Below are positions 1,287-20,361 of a stretch of 25,684 bases of DNA, piece after piece (positions within the stretch are counted from its first letter, which is position 1; each line of letters begins with the position of its first letter). Below the pieces are notes generated by a model. That model saw nothing but the letters and a program-made list of their open reading frames with translations. It did not search any database and was not told where the DNA came from. Both the position numbers and the translations under genes were made by a program. The DNA is taken from positions 1-25,684 of the IMG/VR virus record IMGVR_UViG_3300027909_000060; one strand, written 5' to 3'. This DNA comes from a virus.

Positions 1287-1314
1287 GGGTGCGTCTCCCT
1301 CGAGCTCACGGGTG

Positions 1315-1881: not shown

Positions 1882-1885
1882 CGGT

Positions 1886-6460: not shown

Positions 6461-6472
6461 GGCAGGCCCCTC

Positions 6473-6745
6473 TCACGGGTGCGGGTCGAGCGTGCGCGCC
6501 TTGACGAGCGCCAGGTCGAGCGCCTCGACCAGCGCGCCGTCCAGGCGTTCGTCGTGATACGCCTGCACGACGCGTCGCGCGGCGCGGGCGAGCTCGAGGT
6601 GAACGCGCAGTAGTTGCTGTTGCTCGGTGACAAACCGTTCGATGGCGTGCCCGAGCGCGTCGAGTTCGACGGCGAGGTCGTGGGTCGCGTTCTCGTAGGA
6701 CGCGGCCGGCGTGGCGGCCGCAGGATCAGGGGCATCCGGCATCAT
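6473..6745 (-). CDS. hypothetical helical protein (90 aa)
   Basis: A 90-residue protein that reads as almost wholly helical after a Pro/Ala-rich N-terminus (first 15 residues). Leu, Ala and Val recur at helical spacing (DLAVELDALGHAIERFV, QLLRVHLELARAARRVV). The start is an ATG-ATG pair; the first forms an ATGA overlap with the preceding stop, so that one is chosen. The family and function are unknown. It belongs to the early operon between the DUF3846 region and the recombination genes. Confidence 0.6.
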   Translation of the reverse strand: MMPDAPDPAAATPAASYENATHDLAVELDALGHAIERFVTEQQQLLRVHLELARAARRVVQAYHDERLDGALVEALDLALVKARTLDPHP

Positions 6746-7062
6746 GAGACCTCTCCCACGGTGATCTGCTCGCTCACCTTCGGCGCGTCGGTCTCGCCGA
6801 GAATAAATTCAACGTCGATGACGGCGCCGTCGACGAGATCGTCGAAGTACTCGGCGATGTGAAGGTGCGCAGTCTTCAGCGTGCGATCGCCCCACGCCCA
6901 CGGGTCGTAGCGGCATTCCTGGGTCGCGAGCTCGACGAGGTAGACCATCGGGCTCTGGAAGCCCGCGCGTCGCATCAGATAGCCATCCTGGCCGCTCACC
7001 TGAATCGCCAGCGCTTGAATCGACGTGTGCTGATCTCTCAGTTCCAGCAACTTGGTGATCAT
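6742..7062 (-). CDS. hypothetical early protein (106 aa)
   Basis: A 106-residue protein with a mix of strands and helices, not recognised. It begins with a short helix (MITKLLELRDQHTSIQALAI), then GYLMRRAGF, an aromatic segment (CRYDPWAWGDRTLKTAHLHI), and an acidic end (FDDLVDGAVIDVEFILGE). The last part suggests a compact alpha/beta domain. Both ends overlap their neighbours as ATGA, which fixes the start. Its neighbour codes for a DUF3846-type protein, and such genes are usually dispensable accessory early genes. Confidence 0.6.
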   Translation of the reverse strand: MITKLLELRDQHTSIQALAIQVSGQDGYLMRRAGFQSPMVYLVELATQECRYDPWAWGDRTLKTAHLHIAEYFDDLVDGAVIDVEFILGETDAPKVSEQITVGEVS

Positions 7063-7385
7063 GCGAAGTCCTCGTCGAGGGCGATCGCGACGTCACCGGC
7101 GATCTGGTGCGTCGTGCCGGCCTGGCAAACGCTGAGATACAGCGCGGTGGCTTTCGGATTGAGCGGCTTGCGCGGCGCGACCGGCACCATCTCGAGACCG
7201 TAGGCGCGCGGCTCGGCGCGACACTCCCACCCGTTGTCGTCGCACAGCATCACGCGGCCGTCGCGGAGGTTGACGGCGTCGAAGGTGTCGGCGCCGATCA
7301 GCCGGTTGATCGTCGACACCGCCAGGGCGCGCGCGATCTCGTGGATCTCTTCACGGCCGTTGGTGCGGATGACGAGTACTCGCAT
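7059..7385 (-). CDS. DUF3846-like protein (108 aa)
   Basis: A 108-residue protein that fits the DUF3846 pattern found in phages and mobile elements: an N-terminal strand with RVLVIRTNGREEIHEI, a Leu/Ile helix, a central TFDAVNLRDGRVMLCDDNG (a hallmark of the family), and a C-terminal hydrophobic segment with the PLNPKATALYL motif. No biochemical role of the family is known to me. The ATG overlaps the preceding stop by one base (TGATG). It likely forms a small fold of strands around the conserved Asp-Asp-Asn-Gly turn. Confidence 0.75.
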   Translation of the reverse strand: MRVLVIRTNGREEIHEIARALAVSTINRLIGADTFDAVNLRDGRVMLCDDNGWECRAEPRAYGLEMVPVAPRKPLNPKATALYLSVCQAGTTHQIAGDVAIALDEDFA

Positions 7386-7918
7386 CAGATCCTCTTCAAG
7401 GGATTGCGCTCGGCACGCTGAAAGAACAAGTGGCCGGTCCCGCGCGGCTTTTCACCCGCGTGGAAATCGCATTTCACCTGGACCTTCTTCTTACAAAACA
7501 CGAGCACGTCGGTCCCAAGAATTTGCACGTTGTGCCGTTCGTCCTCGGTCGCATCCAGCCAGAACGGAAACCGGCCGCGTTTCATGGCACCCAGCACACA
7601 CATCACGGCGAGCTGGCCTTTTCGAGTCGTCGAGAGCCCGTCTCGAAACTGTGTCCACCCTTCCCATGATTCGAACCGCAGGCGACGCAAGTCCTCGACA
7701 TCCTCCACAGGCACGAGCCATCCCTCCGCCGTCGGTCCAGCGACACCGGGTTGGCCCGCGAACCGTTTCTCGCGCGGTGTTCGAAACACGGCGTCCACAC
7801 CGTTCTTGGTCGGAAAGGCGTAGATCGTGCGATTCACAACAGAGACGTGCGCGCGAATATCGCTCCCCTCGGTGTGAATCCCATATTCGAAGAGCGAGAC
7901 GTCGAGTTGCGGCTGCAT
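7385..7918 (-). CDS. hypothetical early protein (177 aa)
   Basis: A 177-residue protein I cannot assign. It begins right after the MT-A70 gene (one base between that stop and this ATG). A longer form of the frame would run into that gene and is not chosen. The middle contains WLVPVEDVEDLRRLRFESWEGW and a helix (QLAVMCVLGAMKRGRFPFW), then a strand-rich C-terminus (NVQILGTDVLVFC, KKKVQVKCDFH). Two Cys (FCKKKVQVKCDFH) are close to each other. The gene is consistently located between a DNA methyltransferase and DUF3846, but context does not give it a function. Confidence 0.65.
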   Translation of the reverse strand: MQPQLDVSLFEYGIHTEGSDIRAHVSVVNRTIYAFPTKNGVDAVFRTPREKRFAGQPGVAGPTAEGWLVPVEDVEDLRRLRFESWEGWTQFRDGLSTTRKGQLAVMCVLGAMKRGRFPFWLDATEDERHNVQILGTDVLVFCKKKVQVKCDFHAGEKPRGTGHLFFQRAERNPLKRI

Positions 7919-7919
7919 C

Positions 7920-8927
7920 CTAAGCGCTCGCGACAGCGGCATCCGCTCGCAGTTCGTTACCCCAGGTGGCCCAGGGCGCGGGGGCTGGGCGCCTGGCGAA
8001 GAGTTCGAGCCGAGCGCCGCGCGGATACAGCTCGTCGATGATGGTGCGAAAGGCTTCTGGCTTTTCGCTATGGACGGCACTGCGCTCGATCGTCTGCACC
8101 GAGTCGTGGAGCACCTGGACATCCGGCGTGCACGAGCCGCGCGTGCAGATCAACAAAAACTCGTGGCGCACGCTGTTGTAGTGCCCGAAGTTGTGTTTGA
8201 CCTTGTCCCAGACAAAGGACGTCTTGTAGGTGAACCCCCACGCGTCGATGACTGCGAAGCATTCGGCCAGGAGCGGGGACGTCACCCAGAGAAACAACAC
8301 GGCCTGCGGATCGGTGAGCTGCTTCACCGGCAGATCACACAAGTCCGCGATCGACATCGACGGGTAGTGCCGCGCGACGTGGCCGTAGTTGTCGGAGTCG
8401 TTGATGACGCCGCTGTTGCCGTACGACCAGGGCGGATCGGCGTAGAGCACGCGGTACCGCCCAGTCGCAGGGAGTTCTGCGGTCGGCCGCTTCGCGCGCT
8501 CGACCTCGCGGATGGCCTGTGCGACGCTGGCGGTGCCCGCTTTCACGTTCTCGAATTGCTCGTCTGGAAGATCGGCGAGCTTCTGGGCGAGCGCCGAGGT
8601 TTTGAGAGACACGCCGAGAGCTCCTAAAGTGGAATGCTTTGGTGGGATCCCACTTTTGCCAATTCCCCGAGCACCCGCATTCTTCGGCGTCTCTTTCAGA
8701 ATTTCGCCCAGCCGTCGAAGCGCCTCGACCCTGATCGCGTGCGCGAAATCGATCGACTCCTGCCCTAACTGCTGCTGGCGCGCATAGACCTCGGCGGCGG
8801 CCGCCAGATCCGCTATCTGTTTCGCGGCCTGGACGGTCTTCGCCTTCGCCAGTTCTGCGCGCGCGGCGCCGAGCCGCGCCAGGACGGGATCGCGGCGAAC
8901 GGCAAGCGCGTGCGTCTTTACTCGCAT
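7920..8927 (-). CDS. MT-A70 family DNA (adenine-N6) methyltransferase with N-terminal helical region
   Basis: A 335-residue protein. The second half is an MT-A70-type adenine methyltransferase: catalytic DPPW at residues 164-167 after RYRVLYA, then a HYPSMSIADLCDLPV segment, an AVLFLWVTSPLLAE strand and the FVWDKVKHNFGHY region. The C-terminal part has RSAVHSEKPEAFRTIIDELYPRGARLELFAR, a usual end of the family. The first 150 residues are helical (Ala/Gln-rich, AAKQIADLAAAAEVYARQ) and resemble the N-terminus of phage MT-A70 proteins that also carry a ParB-like or HTH-like region. The enzyme probably modifies phage DNA to escape host restriction. GGAG precedes the start. No matching restriction nuclease is adjacent. 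Confidence 0.9.
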   Translation of the reverse strand: MRVKTHALAVRRDPVLARLGAARAELAKAKTVQAAKQIADLAAAAEVYARQQQLGQESIDFAHAIRVEALRRLGEILKETPKNAGARGIGKSGIPPKHSTLGALGVSLKTSALAQKLADLPDEQFENVKAGTASVAQAIREVERAKRPTAELPATGRYRVLYADPPWSYGNSGVINDSDNYGHVARHYPSMSIADLCDLPVKQLTDPQAVLFLWVTSPLLAECFAVIDAWGFTYKTSFVWDKVKHNFGHYNSVRHEFLLICTRGSCTPDVQVLHDSVQTIERSAVHSEKPEAFRTIIDELYPRGARLELFARRPAPAPWATWGNELRADAAVASA

Positions 8928-8937
8928 AGCGGCTCCG

Positions 8938-9237
8938 TCAGGCGCGGCGCTTGCGACCGAACGTCGGTTCGTAGACGGGATCCCCGCAGAGATAGCGATA
9001 GACCTTGACGCCCGAGTAGCACTTGTTCCCGATCGCGGGCTTCAAGAGGAAGGCATCGAACGCGCCGGCCTTCGCGAGCTTGGAAGACTGCGCACGCTTG
9101 ATCCGGAAAATCGCCCCGATTTCCCCGATGCCGAGCGGCTCACCCGCCTTGGCGCGCTCGATCGCCTCGCGCGTCCCCGCATCATTGAGATCGATCGGCG
9201 GCAATGGATCGAAGGCGCGGATTGGCGTTTCAGACAT
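8938..9237 (-). CDS. small HTH-like DNA-binding protein (99 aa), possibly excisionase- or regulator-type
   Basis: A 99-residue protein. Residues 28-60 show a helix-turn-helix-like pattern (EPLGIGEIGAIFRIKRAQ, then SSKLAKAGAFDAFLL), and the end is basic (PTFGRKRRA). The YSGVKVYRYLCGDPVYEP segment resembles the wing and tail of MerR- or excisionase-like proteins. It is the second gene after the early promoter, overlapping the end of the Cro-like gene by eight bases. A lysis/lysogeny or excision role fits the position. The call is inferred from pattern and place; no catalytic motif exists. Confidence 0.55.
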   Translation of the reverse strand: MSETPIRAFDPLPPIDLNDAGTREAIERAKAGEPLGIGEIGAIFRIKRAQSSKLAKAGAFDAFLLKPAIGNKCYSGVKVYRYLCGDPVYEPTFGRKRRA

Positions 9238-9508
9238 CGTCGTGATCCTCGAGGTCCGGGTCCGGCGCGACCGGCGGCTCGTCGACGAGTCGCGGCAACG
9301 TGGGCAGGAGCGGTGGCACCGGGAAGAGCGCCGTCGGACTGACGCCGAGGACTTGCGCGAGATGCACGATCGACCGGAACGGCACCTCGTTGAGGAAGTC
9401 GCGATCCCCGCTCTCGAGACGAACGATGACGGCGACGTCGAGGCCCGCGCGCTGGGCCAATTCCTGGCGAGAGAGGCGCGCGATTCGCCGAGCGATCTTG
9501 AGTTCCAT
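9230..9508 (-). CDS. Cro-like XRE-family regulator
   Basis: A 92-residue protein with an N-terminal XRE helix-turn-helix (residues about 3-60): MELKIARRIARLSRQELAQR, the recognition part AGLDVAVIVRLESG, then SIVHLAQVLGVSPTALF. The rest is Pro/Asp/Val-rich and probably flexible. It is the first gene of the leftward early operon and stands opposite the repressor, so it likely acts as Cro or as a second repressor. The ATG at 9508 was chosen; a longer frame would need a TTG at 9541 without a good ribosome binding site. The leader from the predicted promoter would be about 65-70 bases. Confidence 0.8.
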   Translation of the reverse strand: MELKIARRIARLSRQELAQRAGLDVAVIVRLESGDRDFLNEVPFRSIVHLAQVLGVSPTALFPVPPLLPTLPRLVDEPPVAPDPDLEDHDDV

Positions 9509-9582
9509 GTGCAGGCCTGTGCAATGACCAGCGAGCGCCAACTACAGGACGCCAAGAACGCTACACAAATCGCTGCATCTTG

Positions 9583-9611
9583 TCTATATGCGCTTCTCTA
9601 TTTAGACGCAA
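9583..9611 (-). promoter_or_regulatory. leftward early promoter (PL/PR-like)
   Basis: Reading the minus strand, TTGCGT (9611 to 9606) is followed after exactly 17 bases by TATAGA (9588 to 9583). This is a good sigma-70-type match just upstream of the Cro-like gene. The palindrome TCTATTTAGA lies in the spacer and touches the -35, so a bound dimer would block this promoter. The early operon has no other obvious promoter. Confidence 0.65.
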
Positions 9612-9623
9612 AGTAGATATAAT
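9594..9623 (+). promoter_or_regulatory. rightward repressor promoter (PRM-like)
   Basis: A perfect TATAAT is at 9618-9623. The hexamer at the proper distance (TTCTCT at 9594-9599, 18-base spacer) is a poor -35, as expected of a promoter that needs activation. Transcription would begin at about 9630, two or three bases before the GTG start of the repressor, so the message is probably leaderless. It overlaps the divergent early promoter and the palindrome. Confidence 0.6.
9597..9606. promoter_or_regulatory. candidate operator palindrome
   Basis: TCTATTTAGA has perfect four-base arms (TCTA/TAGA) around TT. Further half-sites lie on each side: TCTA at 9583-9586 and TAGA at 9614-9617, giving a nested symmetry centred near 9600. 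It sits between the -35 and -10 of the leftward promoter and over the -35 of the rightward one, the usual place for a phage repressor operator. This is a pattern-based call. Confidence 0.5.
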
Positions 9624-9632
9624 CAGCTATTC

Positions 9633-10283
9633 GTGGGCACAGGCAGCATTGACGGAGGGCGGATCCGGCAGAAAACTAAGCGCGTGGCGCTATCTCCGGA
9701 AGAGCGGAGTCGCGTAGGCCGTTTGTTGCAGGACCTACGCGACGACCGCGAGTTGAAACAAGCAAACATCGCCGAAACCATTGGGTGCAGCGTCGGCACT
9801 GTGCAAGCCATCGAGTACAACAAGTGGAAAGTAGACCGCGACACCATCGAGAAGTACGCCGCGGTGTTCGGGACAACGGTGCACGGCCTCTTGCATCCTG
9901 ATGCGCGGGTCCAGCCGTCGGATCCGGAAGTGGCGGATCTGAATCGCGAGCATCTCGCGATCGCACGCGGCTACATGCGCGCCGTGAAAGCCGTGCGCAC
10001 CGCCGTCGAAGTGCTCCTGGCCGATCAGTCGCGCGATCGCGCCCTGGCCGATCGGATTGAGGACATCGCGGAGCTCGTCGTCGCGCTGAAACCCGCTGTG
10101 GATCGCCATCCGTCCCTGGCGTACGACCTCGGGGAAGCCCTCACGCGCGGCGACGTGTTGGTGGAGCTCGCGGACCGGCTCGAGCGCGATCCGATGTTTG
10201 AAGAACGCCTGCGCGATCTGCTGGATGAACCCACGCCGGCGATCCCGCCGACGGATAGCGCGCCACGCACGAAACGGAAATGA
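9633..10283 (+). CDS. CI-like XRE repressor without a peptidase domain
   Basis: A 216-residue protein with a helix-turn-helix at about residues 25-85 (EERSRVGRLLQDLRDDRELK, ANIAETIGCSVGTVQAIEYN, then a dimer-like helix with YAAVFGTTVHGLL). The C-terminal half is helical, Ala/Asp/Arg-rich (AVKAVRTAVEVLLADQ; DRIEDIAELVVALKP) and could form the dimer interface. There is no sign of the LexA/S24-type self-cleaving domain with its Ala-Gly site and Ser-Lys pair, so induction by RecA-driven cleavage is not expected. The GTG start has no Shine-Dalgarno site but lies about three bases after the predicted transcription start. The integrase ATG follows one base past its stop, so both are probably co-expressed in lysogeny. 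Confidence 0.8.
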   Translation: MGTGSIDGGRIRQKTKRVALSPEERSRVGRLLQDLRDDRELKQANIAETIGCSVGTVQAIEYNKWKVDRDTIEKYAAVFGTTVHGLLHPDARVQPSDPEVADLNREHLAIARGYMRAVKAVRTAVEVLLADQSRDRALADRIEDIAELVVALKPAVDRHPSLAYDLGEALTRGDVLVELADRLERDPMFEERLRDLLDEPTPAIPPTDSAPRTKRK

Positions 10284-10284
10284 A

Positions 10285-11613
10285 ATGAGAGCGAAACACG
10301 ACGACGACCGCAACATCCGCACGGCCTACCGGCCCGATGGGACCGTCAAGGGCTGGCTGGTCCGGTTCACCGTGAAGGGTCAGTTGTTCGAGCGGTATTT
10401 CTCAGCCGCCGAGAATTCGCTGCCGGCGGCGCGCGCCTGGCGCGATGACAACAAGCGGGTCAACACGAAGGCCCCTGGGACGTTCCGCGCGGACGTGCAG
10501 GACTACTTGCGCGACGCGCCTATTCACGAGAGGACTCGGCCGGCGACCATCAAGAAGCGGACGCAACAACTCGCCTTCCTCGGGGCGCAGGCGCTCGCCA
10601 GTGGCTCCCGTGTGCTGACGGTGAAAGAATGGCTGGTCGAGCGCGAGGCCGCGAAGGCCGGGCACCCGGTTCCCTCGCGCGGCCGCACACTGGACGAGAC
10701 GGCGCGGCACGAGATCCCGATCGATCGGTGGGCCGAGATTTTTGCGAAGGCCTTCGCACCCACGGGTCGCGATGCAGCGGAGTTTGCGAACACCTCGAAT
10801 CTCTATCGCTCAGCCGCCCACCATTTCTACAAGGTGCTCGACCGTCACGAGCCGCGACTGAACCCGATCAGCAAGGTGGCGGTGCGCCCCCGTCAGGAGC
10901 CAAGCCCGAAGGGCCAGGACATGCGCGTGATCGCGGAGATCCTGAAACACGTCCCGACGAAGTTCGGCCGCGACGGGCGAGCCACCGAGCTGCGCCTGAA
11001 CGTGCTCGCCTGGTGCAACATCGAACCCGAACAACTGAAGAACCTAGACCCGGCGCGTGATTTCCACGACGACCCGGACGCCACCGCAGATGAGATCGTG
11101 GACGGCGCGATCACCCTGACGTGCCCGGCCAGGCTGAAGGGCCGATTGAAGGTCATCCCAGCCCCGTTGCTGAAGTTTCTGATCCCTCGAGGGGTCGAGG
11201 CCCTGCGCGCGTATGCGACTGAATCCGCCGACTGGAAGACGCACTCGTTTTCGAACAGCTCGCTGCTGAAGGCGCTGAAGCGCGCGAGTCGTCAGGCTCA
11301 GGTCGCGCTCGCCAAGCAAGGGGTGTCGGTCGATCTGTCGGGGATGACGGTCAAACAGCTCCGACACAGCTTCCTGTGCGCGATGACCCTCGCGACCCGC
11401 GGGCGCGTCAGCCTGAGCGGCACGCTACGGGTCGACCCTGGTGTCATCGCCGCGGCGGGACATGCCGACGCGACGATGATGCCGATTTACGTCGAGCGCA
11501 TCATGCGCGAGGCCGACCGGCTCGCGATGGCCGACACGGCCCGCTATCTCGCGGCGCTGTTCGCGCAACCGCTGAAGCCGCCGACGCTGCGGGTTGTGCG
11601 TGGGGCGAAATAG
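10285..11613 (+). CDS. int: tyrosine recombinase (phage integrase)
   Basis: A 442-residue tyrosine recombinase. Catalytic parts by position: Arg237 in ATELRLNV (box I), a likely hairpin Lys289 in GRLKVIP, the box II region MTVKQLRHSFL with Arg360 and His361 (the usual first His of HxxR appears as Lys357), His393 in AAGHADATMMPIY, and nucleophile Tyr402, nine residues after it. The N-terminal third would hold the arm-binding and core-binding domains. It acts at the adjacent attachment core, a tRNA-Val 3' half about 200 bases downstream. The ATG at 10285 is preferred because it lies one base past the repressor stop; an in-frame longer form would overlap the repressor by 86 bases. Its TAG stop is inside the left arm of a long hairpin. 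Confidence 0.92.
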   Translation: MRAKHDDDRNIRTAYRPDGTVKGWLVRFTVKGQLFERYFSAAENSLPAARAWRDDNKRVNTKAPGTFRADVQDYLRDAPIHERTRPATIKKRTQQLAFLGAQALASGSRVLTVKEWLVEREAAKAGHPVPSRGRTLDETARHEIPIDRWAEIFAKAFAPTGRDAAEFANTSNLYRSAAHHFYKVLDRHEPRLNPISKVAVRPRQEPSPKGQDMRVIAEILKHVPTKFGRDGRATELRLNVLAWCNIEPEQLKNLDPARDFHDDPDATADEIVDGAITLTCPARLKGRLKVIPAPLLKFLIPRGVEALRAYATESADWKTHSFSNSSLLKALKRASRQAQVALAKQGVSVDLSGMTVKQLRHSFLCAMTLATRGRVSLSGTLRVDPGVIAAAGHADATMMPIYVERIMREADRLAMADTARYLAALFAQPLKPPTLRVVRGAK

Positions 11614-11673
11614 GACCCAGCTCTATGACCCCGTGCGATCGCGAAACGCACGAGGTCATAGGTTTGGGTCCTA
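11611..11673. terminator. long imperfect hairpin at the end of the integrase gene
   Basis: Three stacked stems form one hairpin: TAGGACCCA pairs with TGGGTCCTA (9 bp), CTATGACC with GGTCATAG (8 bp), and GTGCG with CGCAC (5 bp), with small internal loops and a nine-base apex containing GCGAAA. The integrase stop codon is in the left arm. No T-run follows directly; a T6 is about 30 bases downstream. It may stop transcription, stabilise the message 3' end, or be part of the recombination site, so the terminator label is provisional. Confidence 0.55.
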
Positions 11674-11752
11674 AAGCCGGGTCCTATGCGGTCGGAAGAA
11701 GTGGTTTTTTCTAGCATTTTGTAGGCTTTTGTGACGGCCGACTTGGACCCAG
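11611..11752. repeat. cluster of GGACCC-type short repeats between int and the attachment core
   Basis: GGACCCAG occurs at 11613-11620 and 11745-11752, and the inverse GGGTCCTA at 11666-11673 and 11679-11686. The latter two are both complementary to TAGGACCC at 11611-11618. Four short repeats in about 140 bases near an integrase gene and core site fit arm-type integrase or accessory-protein sites. The fit is by pattern only. Confidence 0.45.
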
Positions 11753-11815
11753 AAAAGACGAGAAGTCGCGACTTTATTGAGGAAATTCCCAGAAAGAGCG
11801 AGTTCTGACACCCCG

Positions 11816-11860
11816 TTCACACGCACGAGGTCACACGTTCAAGTCGTGTAGCGCCCACCA
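11816..11860 (+). other. attP: attachment core (attP): 3' half of a tRNA-Val(CAC) gene
   Basis: The bases fit a tRNA from the anticodon loop to the end with exact spacing: loop TTCACAC (anticodon CAC), 3' anticodon strand GCACG, variable loop AGGTC, T-stem ACACG, T-loop TTCAAGT, T-stem CGTGT, acceptor strand AGCGCCC, discriminator A, and CCA. The 5' partner needed for the anticodon stem (CGTGC) is not present (CCCCG instead), and no 5' acceptor GGGCGCT is found upstream. The identity to a host tRNA therefore starts at the anticodon loop, as is usual for tyrosine integrases. The phage copy would rebuild the tRNA after integration. Confidence 0.85.
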
Positions 11861-12006
11861 CTTACAGCAGCTAGGTCCCACGCCGAACCATCGCCATCCG
11901 GGTTTCGCTGTATTGCGTGGTCCCCATCTACCCGATACTCTGCACGTCATCCGCTGTTCGGTCACCCTTTTGACGCTGCCCCTCCGGGGGTGTATGCGAG
12001 GTGTTC
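11861..12006. other. spacer between attachment core and lipoprotein gene
   Basis: A stretch of about 145 bases with no reading frame that looks coded. It includes a short GC hairpin (CCCC-TCC-GGGG near 11979-11989) and a weak promoter-like pair, TTGACG (11970-11975) and TATGCG (11993-11998) with a 17-base gap. A G-rich GAGGTG at 11998-12003 lies right before the ATG. It may carry the promoter of the next gene and part of the attP arms, but nothing is firm. Confidence 0.3.
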
Positions 12007-12867
12007 ATGCCGTCGTTCATTCTCCGCAATCTGGATCCCGAGTTCTGGTCGCGCGTTCAAGCCAAGGCCGCGGCGGAAGGCACCACCGTGAAGGCGGTGA
12101 TCCTCCGCCTGCTCGCGTCCTGGCTCGCCGCCGGATTGCTCCTGTTCACGGTCGGGTGCGCGTATCAGAACCCCGCCGCTCCGACGCCGCCGGCCCCGGC
12201 AACGCCAGGTGTGCCCGCGCGGATCGAGCTCAACTCGAGCGCCGGGACGGGCGCCGAGAGTGGCTCAGGCCGCATTAGCGCCCGCGTGTTCGACGCGTTC
12301 GCGACCGCCCTCCCCGAGCAGACCGTCGACTTCCGGGCGTCTGACGGGACGCTGAGCGCGGCGCAGGTCGTGACCGATGCGTCGGGCATGGCGCGGACCA
12401 TCATCACGGGGCCGGACGGCGCCGTGATTACGATCGTGGCGACCCTCGGCGCGCTCGAAGTGACGACGCGGGTCGCCATCCAGGCCCGGCCGGTGGTGCC
12501 GCCCACCCCGACCCCGCCGACGCCGACGCCCATTCCGCCGACCCCGACGCCGACCCCGCCGACGCCGATTCCCCCGACCCCGATTCCGCCCACACCGATC
12601 CCGCCGACCCCGCTGTTCACGCGGAGCGGTTCGGGCGATACGGTCTTTGACATGCCGACGACGGTCGCGCGCGTCCGCATCACCGGCACGTACACGGGCA
12701 CGAGTTCCAACTTCATCGTGCGGATCGCCGGCGCGCTCGTCGTCAATGAGCTGCTCGGGACGAGCTGGGGGCTCACGTCGTTTGAGGGCACGTACCTGAC
12801 GAGCGGCGGCGTTGTCGCGATCACGAATTCCACCGGCGTCGCGTGGACGTTTACGGAGGTCCGCTAG
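12007..12867 (+). CDS. RHH-like N-terminus joined to an Ig-domain lipoprotein (possible lysogenic-conversion gene)
   Basis: A 286-residue product oriented against the late genes. Residues 1-42 read like a ribbon-helix-helix domain of the FitA/Arc antitoxin type: strand SFILRNL, helix DPEFWSRVQAKAAAEG, helix TTVKAVILRLLASWL. The same second helix runs into AAGLLLFTVGC (Cys51), a signal-peptide-like segment with an imperfect lipobox (TVGC; Leu is expected at -3). Then come an Ala/Pro spacer, a bacterial Ig-like (invasin/Big_1) domain at about 69-158, a Pro-Thr linker (about 165-202), and a beta-rich C-terminal domain (LFTRSGSGDTVFDMP to FTEVR). GAGGTG precedes the ATG. An internal GTG (base 12088) with GGAAGG seven bases upstream would give a normal lipoprotein. 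A surface protein made during lysogeny is the likely outcome. Confidence 0.75.
   Translation: MPSFILRNLDPEFWSRVQAKAAAEGTTVKAVILRLLASWLAAGLLLFTVGCAYQNPAAPTPPAPATPGVPARIELNSSAGTGAESGSGRISARVFDAFATALPEQTVDFRASDGTLSAAQVVTDASGMARTIITGPDGAVITIVATLGALEVTTRVAIQARPVVPPTPTPPTPTPIPPTPTPTPPTPIPPTPIPPTPIPPTPLFTRSGSGDTVFDMPTTVARVRITGTYTGTSSNFIVRIAGALVVNELLGTSWGLTSFEGTYLTSGGVVAITNSTGVAWTFTEVR
12075..12090 (+). promoter_or_regulatory. possible internal translation start (GGAAGG + GTG)
   Basis: GGAAGG at 12075-12080 is followed after seven bases by an in-frame GTG (codon 28). Starting here gives MKAVILRLLASWLAAGLLLF and then TVGC, a compact signal peptide with Lys and Arg before the hydrophobic core. This looks better as a lipoprotein start than the ATG 81 bases earlier. 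Both starts could be used. Confidence 0.45.
12499..12612 (+). repeat. Pro-Thr tandem repeat linker
   Basis: The DNA repeats short units of the form CCGACCCCGA/CCGATTCCGCC, coding for PPTPTPPTPTPIPPTP-like tandems of about 38 residues. The linker joins the Ig-like and C-terminal domains and would span the cell wall or periplasm. Such repeats are prone to slippage, so length may vary between isolates. Confidence 0.7.
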
Positions 12868-12924
12868 TCCTCATCGCACGCCTGGTGCGGTGCCGCGCCG
12901 TCAGCGACCTGTGTTTGCTCTCGG
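12868..12924. other. convergent intergenic gap
   Basis: A 57-base space between the ends of the plus-strand lipoprotein gene and the minus-strand late operon. A small CGCAC/GTGCG stem (12875-12889) is present, but no T-run on either side. It does not look like a strong terminator. Confidence 0.3.
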
Positions 12925-13290
12925 CTAGTCGAGACCGGTCATGCCCTTGAGGAGCTTGAGCGCGAGCTCCTGCACGAGGGTAAACGGGAGCGCCACGCCG
13001 CGATCCTTCATCTCGGTCTTAATCTTCGTCCACACGCGGTCGGTGCGGGTCGCATCGAGAAACTCGTGACCCGTCCAGGTGATGGACCCAGGGAGGGCCG
13101 TCGGACTGCCGTCCCCCTGGGCCGTGATCGCCACGCCGGTAATCAGCCGCCCCTCGATCATCAACAGCACATGGTGGCCGATGACCTCCTGGTCGTAGCC
13201 GGGAATGGTGAAGGGCGCCGGCGCGAAGCCGTGTGCTTCGGCCTCCATCGCCAAGAGGATCTTGCGCACGAGGTCTAGGTCGCGCTTCAT
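12925..13290 (-). CDS. DUF2513-like protein (121 aa)
   Basis: A 121-residue protein matching the DUF2513 pattern: MKRDLDLVRKILLAMEAE at the N-terminus, GYDQEVIGHHVLLMIEGRLI (winged-helix-like), ITWTGHEFLDATRTDRVW in the middle, and a C-terminal helix with LPFTLVQELALKLLK. The family is found in phages and chromosomes, has a winged-helix-like fold by pattern, and no clear role. It is the last gene of the minus-strand run before the attachment region. It could be transcribed from the late operon or be independent. Confidence 0.8.
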   Translation of the reverse strand: MKRDLDLVRKILLAMEAEAHGFAPAPFTIPGYDQEVIGHHVLLMIEGRLITGVAITAQGDGSPTALPGSITWTGHEFLDATRTDRVWTKIKTEMKDRGVALPFTLVQELALKLLKGMTGLD

Positions 13291-13318
13291 GCGGCGGTCG
13301 ATTCTACCGCCGCGGGCG

Positions 13319-13510
13319 CTACTCCTCGTCCCACGCCAGATGGAGACATTGCGCGCACAGATAGCATTTATTGGGCGTGCGGTTGCACTCGGCGATGAGT
13401 TTGAGGCGGAGGCGAAGCCGGGCGATGAGTTGATCGCGCTCTTTCAGCCGGGCGGCCGTGAGCAGATCACGGCGACGGGACTCCGGCGTGCGCGGGCTGG
13501 TCGCTGGCAC
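13319..13510 (-). CDS. small Cys-containing protein (63 aa)
   Basis: A 63-residue protein with a GTG start and GAGGG just upstream. A longer form would overlap the membrane protein gene further and is not preferred. The middle is a basic helix (RLKERDQLIARLRLRLKLIA), and the end has four Cys-like positions (ECNRTPNKCYLCAQCLHLAW), with C...CxxCxxC, possibly metal-binding. It overlaps the end of the preceding gene by 44 bases. Rz/Rz1-like overlaps look similar, but it has no signal peptide or membrane segment, so a spanin is not supported. The function is unknown. Confidence 0.5.
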   Translation of the reverse strand: MPATSPRTPESRRRDLLTAARLKERDQLIARLRLRLKLIAECNRTPNKCYLCAQCLHLAWDEE

Positions 13511-13835
13511 GTTCCCTCTCGATCCCCAACCGCGGCGGCGCCCCGGTCGCGGCCGGGCGCACCCGGCCAAAGTAGAACCCAATCACGAGGCCGACAATCG
13601 TCCACCATTCGGGCGGCAGCCGCGCGTCGCTATCGTAGGTCGAGAGCGCGACGACGCCGCCGCACGTCGTCATGACGACGAGCACGGCAATCACGCTCTG
13701 CGTGTATTCCCAGACGTGGTTGACGCGCCGGTCGGACGCCGCGGTGATCGCCGTCTCGAGCTTGCGCCCGATCCCCAGCATCGCTTGCTGATACTCGCGC
13801 GTCGGATCGGGCGGCGGCGCGGCGGCCGGGTTCAT
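13467..13835 (-). CDS. two-span membrane protein, holin candidate
   Basis: A 122-residue protein. A polar, Pro-rich N-terminus is followed by a helix (YQQAMLGIGRKLETAITAAS) and two hydrophobic segments: SVIAVLVVMTTCGGVVAL and WTIVGLVIGFYFGRVRP, joined by a short polar loop (STYDSDARLPPEW). The C-terminus is charged (RLGIERERASDQ). Size, two membrane spans and location after the tail genes are those of many holins, but no lysis gene family can be named. A tail or envelope membrane protein is the alternative. It begins six bases after the preceding stop. Confidence 0.55.
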   Translation of the reverse strand: MNPAAAPPPDPTREYQQAMLGIGRKLETAITAASDRRVNHVWEYTQSVIAVLVVMTTCGGVVALSTYDSDARLPPEWWTIVGLVIGFYFGRVRPAATGAPPRLGIERERASDQPAHAGVPSP

Positions 13836-13841
13836 CGCGGG

Positions 13842-14531
13842 TCATTCGTCGGGATGGAGCGCCATGTACTCGTCGCTCACCTTGATCGCGTCGACCATCT
13901 CCTGCGGCAACATGTCGTCCTCGCGGATGTTCTTGAGCCAGTTGCAGGCGCCTTTGAAGTCCGACCAGCGATACAGCAGGTTCAGATAGATCGCTTCGAC
14001 GTTCGCGGCCATCTGCGCGTACCACTCGTAGCCGTAGACCTCGGTGCCGGCGACGGCCCAGGCGGGCTCGATTGGCGGCGCCGGCCACGGGGCGTCTTCG
14101 GGGTAGCCGTCCGGCTTGCCGTCGTCGGGCGGCGGCGCCGTGCCTTTCAGCACCAGCGGCCCGGGATACTCGAGATACGCCGCGGTCGGCTGCACCCAGT
14201 TGGTCGGCGGCGGGCTGCCGGCGGGCGGCGGCGGATACGGCGTGTAGGCCAGCTTGATGAGGCGCCGGCCATCCGGCTGCAGTTCGTCGGTGAGGTAGTC
14301 CGCGCCGGTGCCGTCGACACAATCATGGAGTGCATCAACCCCGACGCCATGAAATTGTGTTTGGCCGCCGGTCTTGGCGACGTAGCCGACGCGCGGGTTG
14401 ATCGTCTGGTTGATGGTGTAGCCCGCGCGGACCAACACCTGCCCCTTGCCGTTGTCGCCCTGGTCGCCCGGCACGTAGCACGACTCATAGAGCGCCAGCG
14501 TCTCGGCGAACACCTGCGAATAGTTGTCCAT
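13842..14531 (-). CDS. hypothetical late protein (229 aa) with conserved HGVGVDA-type motif
   Basis: A 229-residue protein I cannot name. The first part has QVLVRAGYTINQTINPRVGY, then QFHGVGVDALHDCVDGTG; this HG.GVDA pattern recalls unassigned phage proteins that have NPRVGY..K..GQ..F.GH.VD. A Pro-rich spacer (PYPPPPAGSPPPTNW) joins it to a second part with GYEWYAQMAANVEAIYLNLLY and an acidic C-terminus. His and Asp in the first motif could be catalytic or metal-binding (a lysin-like enzyme is possible), but this is not supported by family evidence. Its ATG overlaps the preceding stop (ATGA). It sits between tail-tip and membrane-protein genes. Confidence 0.6.
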   Translation of the reverse strand: MDNYSQVFAETLALYESCYVPGDQGDNGKGQVLVRAGYTINQTINPRVGYVAKTGGQTQFHGVGVDALHDCVDGTGADYLTDELQPDGRRLIKLAYTPYPPPPAGSPPPTNWVQPTAAYLEYPGPLVLKGTAPPPDDGKPDGYPEDAPWPAPPIEPAWAVAGTEVYGYEWYAQMAANVEAIYLNLLYRWSDFKGACNWLKNIREDDMLPQEMVDAIKVSDEYMALHPDE

Positions 14532-14668
14532 CAGGTCACCAGCCAACTCAAGACGAGGAAGAACACGCCGAGCCATTCGCAGCGGACGGTGATCCCGGCC
14601 GGCGGTTTCGCGGCAATCAGGAAGCACACCGCCGCCAGGATGAGACACAAGAGACGCGCGGTGACCAT
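14531..14668 (-). CDS. small two-span membrane protein (45 aa)
   Basis: A 45-residue protein with two hydrophobic stretches (LLCLILAAVCFLIAA and WLGVFFLVLSWLV) separated by a short loop (KPPAGITVRCE). The start lies on the TGATG junction after the upstream stop, and the end forms ATGA with the next gene. Small phage membrane proteins like this often lie among late genes; a holin-like or accessory envelope role is possible. Confidence 0.6.
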   Translation of the reverse strand: MVTARLLCLILAAVCFLIAAKPPAGITVRCEWLGVFFLVLSWLVT

Positions 14669-14766
14669 CATCCGTCTCCCTTCGTCAAGAACCCGGCGAG
14701 GCCGAGCAACCCGACGACGATCAGCAGGAACACGACGCCGACCCGCAGCTCAGAAAGCTCCGACAC
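14668..14766 (-). CDS. very small single-span membrane protein (32 aa)
   Basis: A 32-residue protein beginning with GTG and overlapping the end of the preceding gene by 17 bases. It has one strongly hydrophobic segment (VGVVFLLIVVGLLGLAGFL) and a short polar C-terminus (TKGDG). Its stop overlaps the next ATG by one base. It was found by reading the overlap region; being so short, it is less certain than its neighbours, but continuity of frames and hydrophobicity support it. Confidence 0.5.
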   Translation of the reverse strand: MSELSELRVGVVFLLIVVGLLGLAGFLTKGDG

Positions 14767-15043
14767 CCCAGAGCGGGCGCACGAAGGTGCGGAAATCCTT
14801 GGCCGCCGGCAGCGCTTCGAGCCCGGCCCAAATCTGCGACAGTTGCGTCAGGTCGGCGAACGCGGTTTTCAGCGTCGCGACTTCCTGATCGGTGTAGCCG
14901 AGCGCGACGAGATCAGGATTCGGCGTCGCCTCCAGATACGTCTGCATCGTGTAGACGTCCTCGAAACTGCGCTGAAAGGCGCGGGCGGTATCGCCGGCGC
15001 GACTGTCAATTTCGTCTTTGGTGACCGGAAGACCAACACTCAT
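14750..15043 (-). CDS. hypothetical late protein (97 aa)
   Basis: A 97-residue protein, mostly helical, with an acidic start (TKDEIDSRAGDTARAF) and repeated Thr/Leu/Ala helices (LGYTDQEVATLKTAFADL). It follows the tail-tip gene with a clear GGAG about seven bases before the ATG. I recognise it only as a common unassigned phage protein type. An assembly or minor structural role is likely from its place. Confidence 0.6.
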   Translation of the reverse strand: MSVGLPVTKDEIDSRAGDTARAFQRSFEDVYTMQTYLEATPNPDLVALGYTDQEVATLKTAFADLTQLSQIWAGLEALPAAKDFRTFVRPLWGVGAF

Positions 15044-15065
15044 GACAACACTCCATTTCCGTGGG

Positions 15066-15902
15066 CTAGGTCACCTCAAAGGTGATGGTGCCGCGGGCGT
15101 ACGTCAGATTCGCCGCGACGGTCCAATTCGTGTTGGTCGTCGCATCTCGGCAGAGAATCAGGAGGTTCGGGGTATTCGGGCCCGCGACCACATAGCCGGC
15201 GGTGCCCGGGGCCCCAGCATCCGAGGCATACTGGAACGTGACGGTATCTTTCGCGACGAGAAAGCCGCCCGGCACTTTGAGTCGGAGTTGTGACGTGCCC
15301 GTGCCGCCCACCGTCGTCGTGTCGAGAAACCAGACGACCGACAACGTCCGGCCAGAGAGCCGATAAGTATAGGCGGTCACGTCGGCGGCATCCACGGTCC
15401 AGGTCATCGGCGCGAGCGCCGTAAAGTTCGCCGCCGAATACGCGGGCGTAATCCACGCGCCCTGTTCGTGGTCGATGAGATTCCACAAATTGCCATCGTG
15501 GACCCAGGTCGCCCAGCCATCCGGCGCCACCGGCGTTGCCGCCGACTTCGCGAGGTTATAGAACCGATTCGTGGCCAGCCCGGCGCCGCTCATATGGGCA
15601 AAAGAGGCCACCGCGCCCCCGATATTTTTGAAGATCACCGTCTGCCCCCGCACGCCCCCCGCCAGGGTATTGACGGCGAGATTGCTCACACCGCTCCATT
15701 GGATCAGTGTCGTCCCGCTGAGCCCGGGCGCCCAATCGGTGACCGTGCCCGTATCGGTGCGGGGGACCACCGTCGCCAACAGTGCCGCATCGGTCGGATC
15801 GAGGAGCACGCCGGCAATCGCCGCCTTGTTCCAGATCGAGCCAACGGTATTGGACCCGTCGTCATCGACCAGCGCATTGAACGGCCCGCGGTTAATCGCC
15901 AT
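15066..15902 (-). CDS. tail-tip / receptor-binding protein candidate (278 aa)
   Basis: A 278-residue structural-type protein. The N-terminal start (MAINRGPFNALVDDDGSNTV, then GSIWNKAAIAGVLLDP) is a known phage fibre-like opening. It is followed by a beta-rich middle (VIFKNIGGAVASFAHM; GTTLIQWSGVSNLAVNTL) and a C-terminal sandwich (TYRLSGRTLSVVWFLDTTTV, LRLKVPGGF, TVAANLTYARGTITFEV). The many Thr/Ser/Gly/Val residues and lack of enzyme motifs fit a fibre or tip domain that binds the host surface. It is the last large structural gene, after the tail hub, as expected. Chaperone or enzyme roles are less likely. Confidence 0.7.
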   Translation of the reverse strand: MAINRGPFNALVDDDGSNTVGSIWNKAAIAGVLLDPTDAALLATVVPRTDTGTVTDWAPGLSGTTLIQWSGVSNLAVNTLAGGVRGQTVIFKNIGGAVASFAHMSGAGLATNRFYNLAKSAATPVAPDGWATWVHDGNLWNLIDHEQGAWITPAYSAANFTALAPMTWTVDAADVTAYTYRLSGRTLSVVWFLDTTTVGGTGTSQLRLKVPGGFLVAKDTVTFQYASDAGAPGTAGYVVAGPNTPNLLILCRDATTNTNWTVAANLTYARGTITFEVT

Positions 15903-15904
15903 CG

Positions 15905-18259
15905 CTACTCCGGCAACAGCGCGGCCATGCGCCGCAGTAAATCTTCCAGGCTGAATTTCACACTCGAGGCCGTCGTCGTAAACCGCGGCGCCAACCCATC
16001 GGCAATATCCAGCTCGCTGATCGTCACATCCTGAATCACCAGGGTCGCGACGATCGGCAGCGCCGGCAGGTTGACGTCAATCGGTTTGCCGCTCTTCGTC
16101 TTCACATCGCGCGAGGCATACGACACGGTCGCCAGCGGCGCCGAGAACAGCGCCAGGTCCGCATTGCAGCGGGCGGCCAGCGAGGCTTCCGCCCGCCGCT
16201 CGTCCACGATCAGGTGTTCATGGATGCCGTCCGCGGTATAGGTCGCGGTGCTCTCCCGCGCCGCCGCCGCCGCCTGTGCCACCGGGTCATCGCGTTGCAC
16301 GAAGATGTGCACGCGGGCGCCGCGGGGCAGCGGCATCGTGTTGCCCGTCACCCCCGCGAGCGCCGGCGCCGGGACGAGCGCGGAGCCGTAGGAAATGGCG
16401 GTGATGATGGCGCCCGAGCCCGTCGCCGGGACGCCCGTCAAGGTGTTGCCGCTGATGCCGGTATAGCGAATCACCGCCCCGCCCGTCGTCAGCATCCAAC
16501 CAGCCGCCGGCAGCGCGCCGCCCGTCGTGATGATCGACGTCGAGCCCGGGAGCACTGCACCCGACGGTTGCTGCAAACCCGACGTATCGCCCGCGGGCGC
16601 CGCCGCGCCGAGACTGCCATCGGCGGTCGTATCGGTGACCGCGGTCGTCGCCGTATTGTTCGCGATCGTCTGTTGCAGTTTGAGCGCGCTGCCATTCACG
16701 GGCGTGCGATAGAGCTTGCGCGCCGTCGTCGCACTCGGCCCCAGGGCGATGCCCGACACGGTCACCGCTTGCGCGCCCGGCGTCGTGTTCGCGGACGGCT
16801 GGGTCGCGGTCGTCGTGACCGTGGTCGCCGCGCGAATCGTGACGACCCCGGTCCCAACAATGTTATCGAGCGCCTCGTAGGCGCGCCAGACACTACCGCC
16901 GGCAAACGTCCATTGCCAGACCCAAATCGTCTTCACGCGCGGGTCCGGCGAACAGGGAATCGTCACCACCACATTCGCGGCGGCGCTCGGATTCAGCGGA
17001 TCGTTATTACTGACCGTGGTCAGGACTGGCGGATAGTTCGGCGAGATCAGCGTCATCTCAGACGTGTCGACATAACTCGCCTTCGTGCTGTAGGAGTAGT
17101 TGTAGTACTGGAGTTCCCCGATCGGCATGGCCCCACTGATATACGGATAGAAGGGGCTGCCGGTCGGATCATTGCGGACGGTGACACTCCCGGTCGGATT
17201 GACGACACCGCCGCTCGTCGCCACGATGCCGACCGGACTCGGCAACGATTCCCCACTGGCGGTGACGAACGTAAACGCATAGCGATACGTGCCGAGCCCG
17301 AGGCCGGCCCCCGCCACCGCGGTCGCCACCGGCGCCACCGTGGGGGTGACGCCCGGCCCGACGATCGTACCCGGCCCGTCCGTGATGAGACTGGTATACG
17401 CCAGGCGATCGGTGGGCGAGCCATCGGCGGTGCGACTGACAATCACCGCCCCGCCGCCGGCGGTAAAGAGCGTGCTATTCGCGACCGGCAGCGTCGATTC
17501 ACCCGCGGCCAGATCCGCCAGCAACGTGGTCCCCCATCCGCGCCCATAGACGCGCGTGCGGATTTGCGAGTCGTCCACGGTCGAGGCGATCGGCGGCTCG
17601 AGGGACAGCGTCGGCGTCGTTGGCGTCAACGGGTCCGGCGCCTGGGTGGGTTCGTCGAGGAAGAAATGCAGCGCGCCGTCTTCCCAATAGAAATACGCGC
17701 CGACAATTTTCGCAATGGCGCGCAGGCAGCCGTTGAAGCCTTCGGTGCCATCGAACGCCACGGTGACCGCGGGCAGGTCCGCTTGCACATGCGTCGCGGT
17801 CAGGCCCGGCGCAAACCGCGCCACCAGATCGGTGACGACGGTCGAGGCCGACACCGTCTGGTAATAGGCAAACGGGCGCCGGTTGTCCGCCCGCATCGTG
17901 TCGTCGGTCGCGCTGCAGGCATAGACGGTGTTGGCCGGCTTCCCTTGGTAGGTCAGCGCCGCCGTTTCGAGCGTGCCGTTGAACAGCAGCCGCGGACTGT
18001 TGGTGTTGATCGTGATGCGCACTTGCATGCCGGGTTCCGGCGCCGGCGTGCCGCCGATCGCAAACTGGCAGGTGTTCGGCACATCGTTGAGCACGTCGTG
18101 AATCGTCACACTGCCCCGCCGCACCCGGTCGCGAACGAGCACGCCATCGAGGTAGATCAGGATGCGCGTTTCGCGGATCGGGGCGACGCCGGCCGGCAGA
18201 TAGTTCAGCCGGAAGTTATTCAGGCGGGCGGTGCCAAGGAGCGCGGGTTGATAGGGCAT
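15905..18259 (-). CDS. tail hub / baseplate protein with inserted Ig/Fn3-like repeats (784 aa)
   Basis: A 784-residue tail protein. The N-terminal part (about residues 1-290) resembles hub (gp27/Tal-like) proteins: a short strand and loop (RETRILIYLDGVLVRDRVRR), VYACSATDDTMRADNRRPFAYY, FNGCLRAIAKIVGAYFYW and LHFFLDEPT. A long Thr/Ala/Gly-rich middle (about 300-600) has Fn3- or Ig-like strands (LGTYRYAFTFVTASGESLPS). The last 150 residues return to hub-like sequence (DDPVAQAAAAARE, then SLAARCNADLALFSAPLATV and KTKSGKPIDVNLPAL). So an Ig-like tract seems inserted within the hub. The protein would cap the tail tube and link the tip. It starts at a TGATG junction after the tape measure. Confidence 0.8.
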   Translation of the reverse strand: MPYQPALLGTARLNNFRLNYLPAGVAPIRETRILIYLDGVLVRDRVRRGSVTIHDVLNDVPNTCQFAIGGTPAPEPGMQVRITINTNSPRLLFNGTLETAALTYQGKPANTVYACSATDDTMRADNRRPFAYYQTVSASTVVTDLVARFAPGLTATHVQADLPAVTVAFDGTEGFNGCLRAIAKIVGAYFYWEDGALHFFLDEPTQAPDPLTPTTPTLSLEPPIASTVDDSQIRTRVYGRGWGTTLLADLAAGESTLPVANSTLFTAGGGAVIVSRTADGSPTDRLAYTSLITDGPGTIVGPGVTPTVAPVATAVAGAGLGLGTYRYAFTFVTASGESLPSPVGIVATSGGVVNPTGSVTVRNDPTGSPFYPYISGAMPIGELQYYNYSYSTKASYVDTSEMTLISPNYPPVLTTVSNNDPLNPSAAANVVVTIPCSPDPRVKTIWVWQWTFAGGSVWRAYEALDNIVGTGVVTIRAATTVTTTATQPSANTTPGAQAVTVSGIALGPSATTARKLYRTPVNGSALKLQQTIANNTATTAVTDTTADGSLGAAAPAGDTSGLQQPSGAVLPGSTSIITTGGALPAAGWMLTTGGAVIRYTGISGNTLTGVPATGSGAIITAISYGSALVPAPALAGVTGNTMPLPRGARVHIFVQRDDPVAQAAAAARESTATYTADGIHEHLIVDERRAEASLAARCNADLALFSAPLATVSYASRDVKTKSGKPIDVNLPALPIVATLVIQDVTISELDIADGLAPRFTTTASSVKFSLEDLLRRMAALLPE

Positions 18260-20361
18260 CAGCTGCCTGAGAGCTTGCGCCCTTGCATGACCTGGCGGTT
18301 GAGGACGTCGGCAATCTGGCGGGCGACATCCTGCGCGGTGCCGTTGACGTGGAACGTATTGACGACGGTCAGGCCGCCGCCGTTCGCAGCAATGCGGCCG
18401 CTGTGACTCGGCACGAAGAGTTCGGGGCCTTGCTCACCGACCATGTAGGGTTGACCGGCCGAGACCGGGCCGCCGCCGGCGCGACCGGGATAGCCGCCGC
18501 CGCCCCACCGGCCTGAGGTGCCCCAGAATTTTTCGCCGCCGACCGCGGCATTGATGAAGATGCCCGCGGCCATGGAGGCGGCCTCTTCCGGCGTGAGCCC
18601 GCCGTGGCCCCCGCTATAGAGCGTGGTCGCCACGGGATTGCCGCCGAAGAACGCGGCGAGCTTCGGATCGTCGACCAGCATATGGAGCTGGTTCATGTAG
18701 ACGCCGGTGGCCTTGGTCGCCTCCTCCGTCGCCTTGGTATCCTTTTTCTTGGCTTCGGTTTTCTTCGACCACCACTCCTCGGCCTGGAGCGCCGCGGCGA
18801 GTTCCGCATCGGCGGCAGCTTTCAGGGCTTGGGTCTCTTGGAGTTTGGCGACCACCGTGTCGTTGGTCGCCTTCAACATGATCGCCTGGATCTCGGCGTG
18901 GCGTTTCTTGGCGTCCGTCGCCATCTGTGTCGCCGCCTCGTCGTTTTTCATCGCCGCGGCCACGGCTTTGACCTGGGTTTCACTGACGCCGTAGAGCGCC
19001 GCTAAGTCCTTTTGTGAGACGCCCAGGTCCAGGTAGTACTTGATCCCCTCGACCACCGTGCCGTTGATCGTGTCGAGGATCTTGACCCATCCCGTGCCGG
19101 CGAGGCTGATGGCCTCCTGCGCCGCCTGGTAGGGCTTCAGGGCATCCGAGGCGGCTTTGGCCGCGGCTTCGGCTTTTTTGAGTGCCGAGGCCGTTTGATT
19201 GATCGGGCCTTGCCAGGCCGCGGTTGCGACCGTCGCCGCTTTCGTCGCGGCCTCGTTCGCCGCGGTTTGCTGGTTCAGATGGTCGAGCAGCGTCGCGAGA
19301 TTGGTCGCACTGCTCCCGGCGCCTGGCATCACGCTCGCCGCGGCGTCGGCCAGCATCGCCTTGAAGATCTCCCACTTCGACGCCCCCTGCATGGCCGCGT
19401 CGACGACGACGTTGAAGCCTTGCGCGACCGGGCCCACCATTTGGGCCGCGATCAACGACAGGCTGTGCGTCGCCTTCTCGATCGACTCGCCGAAGGTGTC
19501 GAGCGCGTCGATGCTTTCCGAGGACAACACCTGATTGAGCTGCTGCGCGCTGGCCATCGTGCTCTCAATGTCGGTCGAGGCCCCCGCCATCGCCATGCCG
19601 AGCTTGTCGCCGAACAACGTCGCCGCGGTTTCATCCCGCAACGACCCTTGGAGCTTGGCCAGCCCTTTCTCGATCGTGAGAAACAGTTCCTGCCCCTCCT
19701 GGCTCCGCACTTCATCGAGCGAGAGGCCCATGGTCTGCAGCGCCGCGGCGACGGAGTCATCGCCTTTGGCGATGCGCTTACTCAGATTAAACATGCCGCG
19801 GCCGAGTTCCTCGGCATCCACCCCGGAATCGGCCATCGCGTTCGCGAGGACCTGGAGTTCATCGGTCGAGATTTGCGTCTGCCGGCTCAGGTCTTTCAGG
19901 GTGGACGCATCCTCGAGGATGGCCTTGCCGAACTCCAGGGCATGGCTGATCACGAATTGCGCGGCCATCGCCGCCAGGTTCCCGACGAAACTCGCCGCGG
20001 CGCTGCTCATCCCCGACATCCCGCTTTCGACTTTCTTCGTCGCATCGGCGAGATCCTGCAACCCTTTCGGCACCTCATAGCCGAGTTTCTGCATTTTCTC
20101 GGCGGCCTCGTTCGCTTTAGCGCCGACCACCTGCAGTTCTTTCGCGGTCAGCGCGGCGACGCCGCCGGCTTTTTCCACCGCGATGGTCAGCAGCGAGGCT
20201 TCCTGAATCAGCTTCCGGCCGCTGAAGTTGTCAACCATCCGATTGAGTTGCTTTTCAACCGTGCTCGCGCCCTTGCCGAAATCCACCAGCGCAATCTCGG
20301 CCTGGTCGATCGCCTGGAGGAAGTTGGAAAAGTCCGCTTTGAACGTGGCGTTAACGGCCAT
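18259..20361 (-). CDS. tape measure protein
   Basis: A 700-residue protein with long helical/Ala-rich tracts, hydrophobic segments (SFVGNLAAMAAQFVISHALEF and others) and the usual C-terminal signature AGGGPVSAGQPYMVGEQGPELFVPS with GRIAANGG and a basic tail. Coiled-coil regions lie near residues 370-550 (AAWQGPINQTASALKKAEAA; DAKKRHAEIQAIMLKATND). The protein sets tail length and helps DNA injection; 700 residues would suggest roughly a 100 nm tail by the usual rule, an estimate only. It begins 11 bases before the end of the frameshifted chaperone frame, as is typical, and supports a siphovirus-like tail. Tape measure genes normally follow the G/GT chaperones, as here. Confidence 0.93.
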   Translation of the reverse strand: MAVNATFKADFSNFLQAIDQAEIALVDFGKGASTVEKQLNRMVDNFSGRKLIQEASLLTIAVEKAGGVAALTAKELQVVGAKANEAAEKMQKLGYEVPKGLQDLADATKKVESGMSGMSSAAASFVGNLAAMAAQFVISHALEFGKAILEDASTLKDLSRQTQISTDELQVLANAMADSGVDAEELGRGMFNLSKRIAKGDDSVAAALQTMGLSLDEVRSQEGQELFLTIEKGLAKLQGSLRDETAATLFGDKLGMAMAGASTDIESTMASAQQLNQVLSSESIDALDTFGESIEKATHSLSLIAAQMVGPVAQGFNVVVDAAMQGASKWEIFKAMLADAAASVMPGAGSSATNLATLLDHLNQQTAANEAATKAATVATAAWQGPINQTASALKKAEAAAKAASDALKPYQAAQEAISLAGTGWVKILDTINGTVVEGIKYYLDLGVSQKDLAALYGVSETQVKAVAAAMKNDEAATQMATDAKKRHAEIQAIMLKATNDTVVAKLQETQALKAAADAELAAALQAEEWWSKKTEAKKKDTKATEEATKATGVYMNQLHMLVDDPKLAAFFGGNPVATTLYSGGHGGLTPEEAASMAAGIFINAAVGGEKFWGTSGRWGGGGYPGRAGGGPVSAGQPYMVGEQGPELFVPSHSGRIAANGGGLTVVNTFHVNGTAQDVARQIADVLNRQVMQGRKLSGS

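Follow-up and report, generated by a model that had tools for sequence, protein, structure and literature searches.

A phage surface lipoprotein that probably carries a conserved ribbon-helix-helix module as its signal peptide

Few parts of a protein usually change as fast as its signal peptide. The enterococcal pheromones cut by Eep are lipoprotein signal peptides with a second function (PMC10202637), and ToxR and CadC are membrane-tethered one-component regulators (PMC9214523). The gene described here occupies positions 12007-12867 (+ strand) of a virus contig from IMG/VR (record IMGVR_UViG_3300027909_000060, positions 1 to 25,684; this whole stretch of 25,684 nucleotides is called the window). 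It probably encodes a single surface lipoprotein with a conserved ribbon-helix-helix (RHH) module for a signal peptide; this N-terminal head is held constant and the cargo behind it exchanged. Precedents are known for each half of this arrangement, namely signal peptides with a second function and tethered regulators, while no description of the combination was found: the literature searched gave no account of an RHH domain that is part of a signal peptide or fused to one, or that is combined with a transmembrane segment. In this case, the predicted signal peptide is the most conserved protein segment common to distantly related phages, and has a fold of the DNA-binding type.

The gene is a single open frame whose first codon is ATG12007. 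The protein reads MPSFILRNLDPEFWSRVQAKAAAEGTTVKAVILRLLASWLAAGLLLFTVGC-AYQNPAAP..., followed by a Big_1 domain, a linker rich in Pro and Thr, and a C-terminal domain of 83 residues. Its layout runs from RHH-like residues 1-42 through a hydrophobic stretch to a lipobox at Cys51 and then the exported part. A search with residues 1-49 found three further phage lineages with the same head: G002, which is the same as G003; G004; and G005. The carriers are several soil phages. The features of the window gene are as follows, where L003 and L005 are phage lipoproteins, AF2 is AlphaFold2 and pLDDT is its predicted local distance difference test score.

11966-12006, + strand: conserved 5' leader of the head gene, with a CCCC..GGGG hairpin and the Shine-Dalgarno (SD) sequence GAGGT at 11998-12002
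12007-12132, + strand: RHH-like head, residues 1-42, with strand 2-8, helix 1 at 11-24, turn EGTT and helix 2 from 28 (PHROG 6506, Foldseek, four lineages, purifying selection)
12088-12090, + strand: internal GTG, proposed second start, judged not conserved as a start (GTC in G002 and G005)
12088-12156, + strand: helix 2 running into the hydrophobic stretch, residues 28-50, the signal-peptide h-region (hydropathy; AF2 helix 28-52)
12148-12159, + strand: lipobox TVGC, with predicted lipidation at Cys51 (PROSITE-type lipobox core)
12271-12465, + strand: Big_1 immunoglobulin (Ig)-like domain, residues 89-153 (Pfam PF02369, E=9e-9, above cut-off)
12493-12615, + strand: Pro/Thr-rich linker (from the sequence)
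12616-12864, + strand: C-terminal β-sandwich domain, residues 204-286 (69/68% identity to L003/L005; AF2 pLDDT 95.7)

The first-pass annotation of this DNA had described an RHH-like domain at the N-terminus, with its second helix merging into a lipoprotein export signal. The open frame, its sequence, the lipobox at Cys51 and the internal GTG with GGAAGG upstream are all present as described, and residues 1-42 do resemble RHH proteins. Residues 1-43 match PHROG 6506, 'Arc-like repressor' (E=1e-4 for the window), as do all four independent heads (best 2e-5). Foldseek searches against the PDB gave top matches that are nearly all RHH proteins, namely Arc (30-32% identity), MatP, CopG, NikA, MazE6, AmrZ and AvtR. 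AF2 models of four sequences have helices at 11-24 and 28-52, with pLDDT about 80 across residues 11-40. The N-terminal strand is not formed in the AF2 monomer, but otherwise the strand-helix-helix order is present, with its G-x-[ST] turn ahead of helix 2. The EGTT turn is invariant among the heads, as is the helix-2 N-cap EGTTVK, which we take to correspond to the phosphate-binding turn of RHH proteins such as Arc.

Stand-alone relatives, for example Majeke gp56 (MPREPLRAIRISDELWQSVRAKADAEGSSANAVIRELLERWVTRPPRNQKG), can be aligned over helix 1, the turn and helix 2 with no gap. The difference is at the end of helix 2, which is charged in the stand-alone proteins (RELLERWVTRPPR) whereas the heads have LRLLAAWLAAG. 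The maximal 17-residue hydropathy is 2.2-2.6 for the heads (window 2.17) and below 0.65 for stand-alone RHH proteins. The apolar helix end, the AF2 helix 28-52 and the lipobox agree with the proposed merger, and the gene does have the character of a fusion, in that an RHH-like head is joined to lipoprotein cargo. The label of antitoxin, also proposed earlier, is unsupported. A type II antitoxin has a cognate toxin in its operon, and here no toxin-like gene adjoins in the same orientation; the downstream neighbour is convergent, and in the window is a DUF2513 gene.

A PROSITE-type lipobox core is present in all four heads, and the Cys is always residue 51 (TVGC in the window; STAC, ITGC and VAAC in the other lineages). 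From this conserved lipobox and the hydrophobic stretch we infer export and lipidation of the window protein. The Cys of a standard lipoprotein lies within the first 15-35 residues, while here it is 51 residues from the conserved ATG, with an n-region of more than 30. A short n-region is usual, yet not strictly required, and we therefore class the protein by its sequence as lipoprotein-like, rather than as a standard member.

Behind the head, the cargo varies. G002 has a Big_1 domain (1.8e-6), G004 a Pro-rich protein with a weak PKD/Big_6-like end, and G005 a SASA/SGNH-type esterase (3.5e-8). The phage gene at L010:667-1383 encodes a predicted carbohydrate esterase of the SASA/SGNH type, displayed as a lipoprotein. 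Conversely, the C-terminal domain of the window protein has 69% identity to the L003/L004 lipoproteins, whose gene lies beside an integrase gene, and 68% to the L005 lipoprotein, and all of these have ordinary short signal peptides without RHH. Given the same head in front of varied cargo, and the same C-terminal domain behind ordinary signals, heads and cargo move independently. The head is a constant module, made up of leader, RHH and predicted signal peptide, behind which the phages swap cargo. The 83-residue β-sandwich domain (window 12616-12864; L003:2931-3179; L005:6052-6300) forms the C-terminus of several phage lipoproteins, and its AF2 model has no significant PDB match.

The head is also unusually well conserved. 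Its identity to the window is 66% in G002, and over the first 32 residues 91% in G004 and 88% in G005 (about 80% over 51 residues), while the portal, the major tail protein and other late proteins are 33-70% identical between the window and the other carriers. It is the most conserved protein segment that the window shares with G002, G004 and G005, above the portal and major tail protein. Outside the late genes, DNA homology is confined to leader and head, starting from 11966 in G004/G005 and from 11979 in G002 (11966-12134 or 11979-12167). The ratio of nonsynonymous to synonymous change (dN/dS, from Nei-Gojobori counts) is roughly 0.04-0.4 for codons 2-27, indicating purifying selection, and similarly low for codons 28-41 in most pairs. 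For codons 42-50 it is about 0.8-3.4, where the letters are free and hydrophobicity alone is kept. The segments are short and single ratios are rough, but the contrast between segments is consistent across all six pairs. The codons upstream of the internal GTG are therefore conserved in the homologues, in keeping with the earlier proposal. That the merged head is kept almost unchanged while the cargo changes suggests that it does more than export. The conservation implies that the RHH part keeps some function, although which function does not follow from it.

Under the reading that we favour, one protein would be started at ATG12007. Its N-terminus would be an Arc/FitA-like RHH module whose helix 2 has lost its charged end and instead runs on as the hydrophobic core of a lipoprotein signal peptide. 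After Sec export, lipidation and cleavage at Cys51, the Ig-like/β-sandwich part would stand on the lysogen's surface and act as an envelope or lysogenic-conversion protein; expression in the lysogen is suggested by the sequence. Tentatively, the uncleaved precursor, or the freed 50-residue head, might still dimerise and bind DNA, probably near its own leader, and so tie expression to export. This is proposed on the basis of the invariant EGTTVK turn, the conserved leader with its CCCC..GGGG hairpin, and an overlap at residues 35-40. The RHH core residues L35, L36, W39 and L40 also begin the membrane helix, so that the DNA-binding dimer and export may exclude each other. A full two-state switch is a rather doubtful extension of this idea: the same helix would either close a DNA-binding RHH dimer, in the unexported precursor or the freed head, or enter the membrane as a signal peptide; the gene would sense its own export, and the head would serve as a regulatory export cassette that is reused with swapped cargo genes. 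Should the head be functional in this way, one helix couples gene control to the state of export, and phages gain a portable cassette with which to display new surface proteins.

Several points weigh against these proposals. Pfam RHH families match weakly and under cut-off (FitA-like_RHH 0.003, RHH_4 0.01), and the Foldseek E-values are individually weak (0.5-2.3), as is expected for a query of only 53 residues. The signal peptide would span 50 residues, with an n-region of 30 or more. The head is known from four lineages only, and no operator came to light. G002/G003 look complete yet lack a recognisable integrase, so lysogenic conversion may not apply to all carriers.

The modest RHH scores would also suit a different explanation, that the head is no more than an unusually long n-region. 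Its RHH origin would be historical, or the resemblance due to chance, and its conservation would come from export targeting or timing, without DNA binding. The DNA-facing strand residues (S/T3, I/T5, R/Y7) are neither strongly polar nor invariant, which fits. Against this stand a conservation above that of portal and tail proteins and the invariant helix-2 N-cap; moreover, the ordinary signal peptides of phage lipoproteins that occupy this niche are not conserved (G006 vs G008). We regard this explanation as possible but unlikely. Even so, a head without function would clearly exemplify a signal peptide that evolved out of a regulator, with the head conserved and the cargo shuffled.

Less probable still is a one-component regulator tethered to the membrane in the manner of ToxR/CadC. 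The RHH would be held by a transmembrane helix to an outer sensor, Cys51 would stay uncleaved, and regulation would respond to whatever the outer domain binds. A cytoplasmic DNA-binding domain, one hydrophobic helix and an outer domain are all there, and the head is strongly selected. However, the lipobox Cys at a fixed position in all four heads predicts cleavage, and the outer part varies among unrelated domains, including an esterase, a pattern ill-suited to a conserved sensing circuit.

The first-pass annotation also suggested that one frame yields two products: the full-length RHH protein, begun at ATG12007, and a lipoprotein with a short signal peptide, begun at GTG12088. The GTG has GGAAGG upstream, MKAVILRLLASWLAAGLLLFTVGC would make a textbook signal peptide, and codon 28 is GTG in G004 as well. 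But G002 and G005 have GTC at this codon, and in G002 neither ATG nor GTG follows codon 1 before Cys51 is reached; its sole candidate is TTG37, which leaves too short a signal. The GGAAGG is explained by the codons of the conserved A-E-G in the RHH turn, which are kept for protein reasons, and ATG12007 has its own good SD, GAGGT, within the conserved leader. A second start is thus not a common feature of the carriers; only the window and G004 could have one. We consider two products improbable, and one chain from ATG12007 the likely product.

An antitoxin-like gene and a surface protein might also have been joined by a recent accidental fusion, or by an assembly or frameshift artefact. The lack of a stand-alone head copy in the carrier phages would fit this, but it is extremely improbable given an identical junction in four lineages from different samples, a dS of about 0.5-1.3 between heads, and an identical sequence of the gene in a second contig of the window phage (G001).

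Searches with the head found no true relative in genome contigs, only one weak match in 400 genomes of one phylum, and only stand-alone RHH proteins in phage and plasmid records. A PADLOC search for defence families gave nothing meaningful. The leader motif occurs nowhere else within each carrier genome; as a wider regulon it was rejected, the remaining matches being unrelated sequence. Consensus searches near the gene found no sigma-70-type promoter and no terminator.

Upstream of the gene lie three further features, among them a helix-turn-helix (HTH) gene.

9633-10283, + strand: HTH repressor-like gene (Pfam HTH_31 5.8e-7, PHROG_8 3.2e-9)
10198-11613, + strand: integrase-like open reading frame (position and RHSF/GHAD/Y motifs; no Pfam, PHROG or PDB match)
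11833-11860, + strand: tRNA 3'-end remnant (T-arm, acceptor, CCA), probable attP core (5/5 paired T-stem, ACACG-TTCAAGT-CGTGT-AGCGCCC-ACCA)

The integrase-like frame is possibly a very divergent tyrosine recombinase. The head gene had been placed beside attP and on the strand opposite to the late genes, and the tRNA remnant and the orientation of the gene agree with this. The remnant sits between the integrase-like frame and the head gene, so that after integration the gene would be at the prophage end away from the integrase. In the three genomes where this can be checked (window, G002 and G004), the strand of the head gene carries an HTH repressor-like gene further upstream, and the structural genes run on the opposite strand. 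The G002 and G003 contigs close a circle of 29,093 b through a 50-b overlap; this complete-looking G003 circle has an HTH repressor, and no tyrosine or serine integrase by profile. Just past the integrase-like frame is a 27-nt inverted repeat (11611-11673, 85%), and diverged direct repeats of 15-32 nt occupy 11604-11852; these are probably integrase arm sites or a terminator at attP. G001 is 100% identical to the window over 1-19837, after which there is a sharp mosaic boundary: over 19838-25684 the two either fail to match or, in the late genes that remain, drop to 96.5% and 84% identity.

Compared with known systems, the head is closest to the Arc-like/FitA-like RHH repressors (PHROG 6506; mycobacteriophage Majeke gp56), which are also phage-borne and share its fold and its helix 1-turn-helix 2 sequence, AKA.AEG(S/T)(S/T)..AVI..LL..W. 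These repressors are soluble and free-standing, measure about 50 residues and have a charged C-terminal end, whereas helix 2 of the head instead appears to become a signal peptide. The L003/L004 lipoprotein, an example of the phage or prophage surface lipoproteins encoded by lysogenic-conversion genes, is alike in its C-terminal domain and in its position opposite the late genes, but has an ordinary signal and another middle domain (HYDIN/ASH Ig). ToxR and CadC share with the window protein an N-terminal DNA-binding domain, one hydrophobic helix and an outer domain; they differ in having a winged HTH rather than an RHH-like domain, in not being cleaved as lipoproteins, and in having a dedicated sensor outside. 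The enterococcal pheromones likewise have a separate function in a lipoprotein signal peptide (PMC10202637), but there it is a short secreted peptide, while the head would be an entire cytoplasmic fold of the DNA-binding type.
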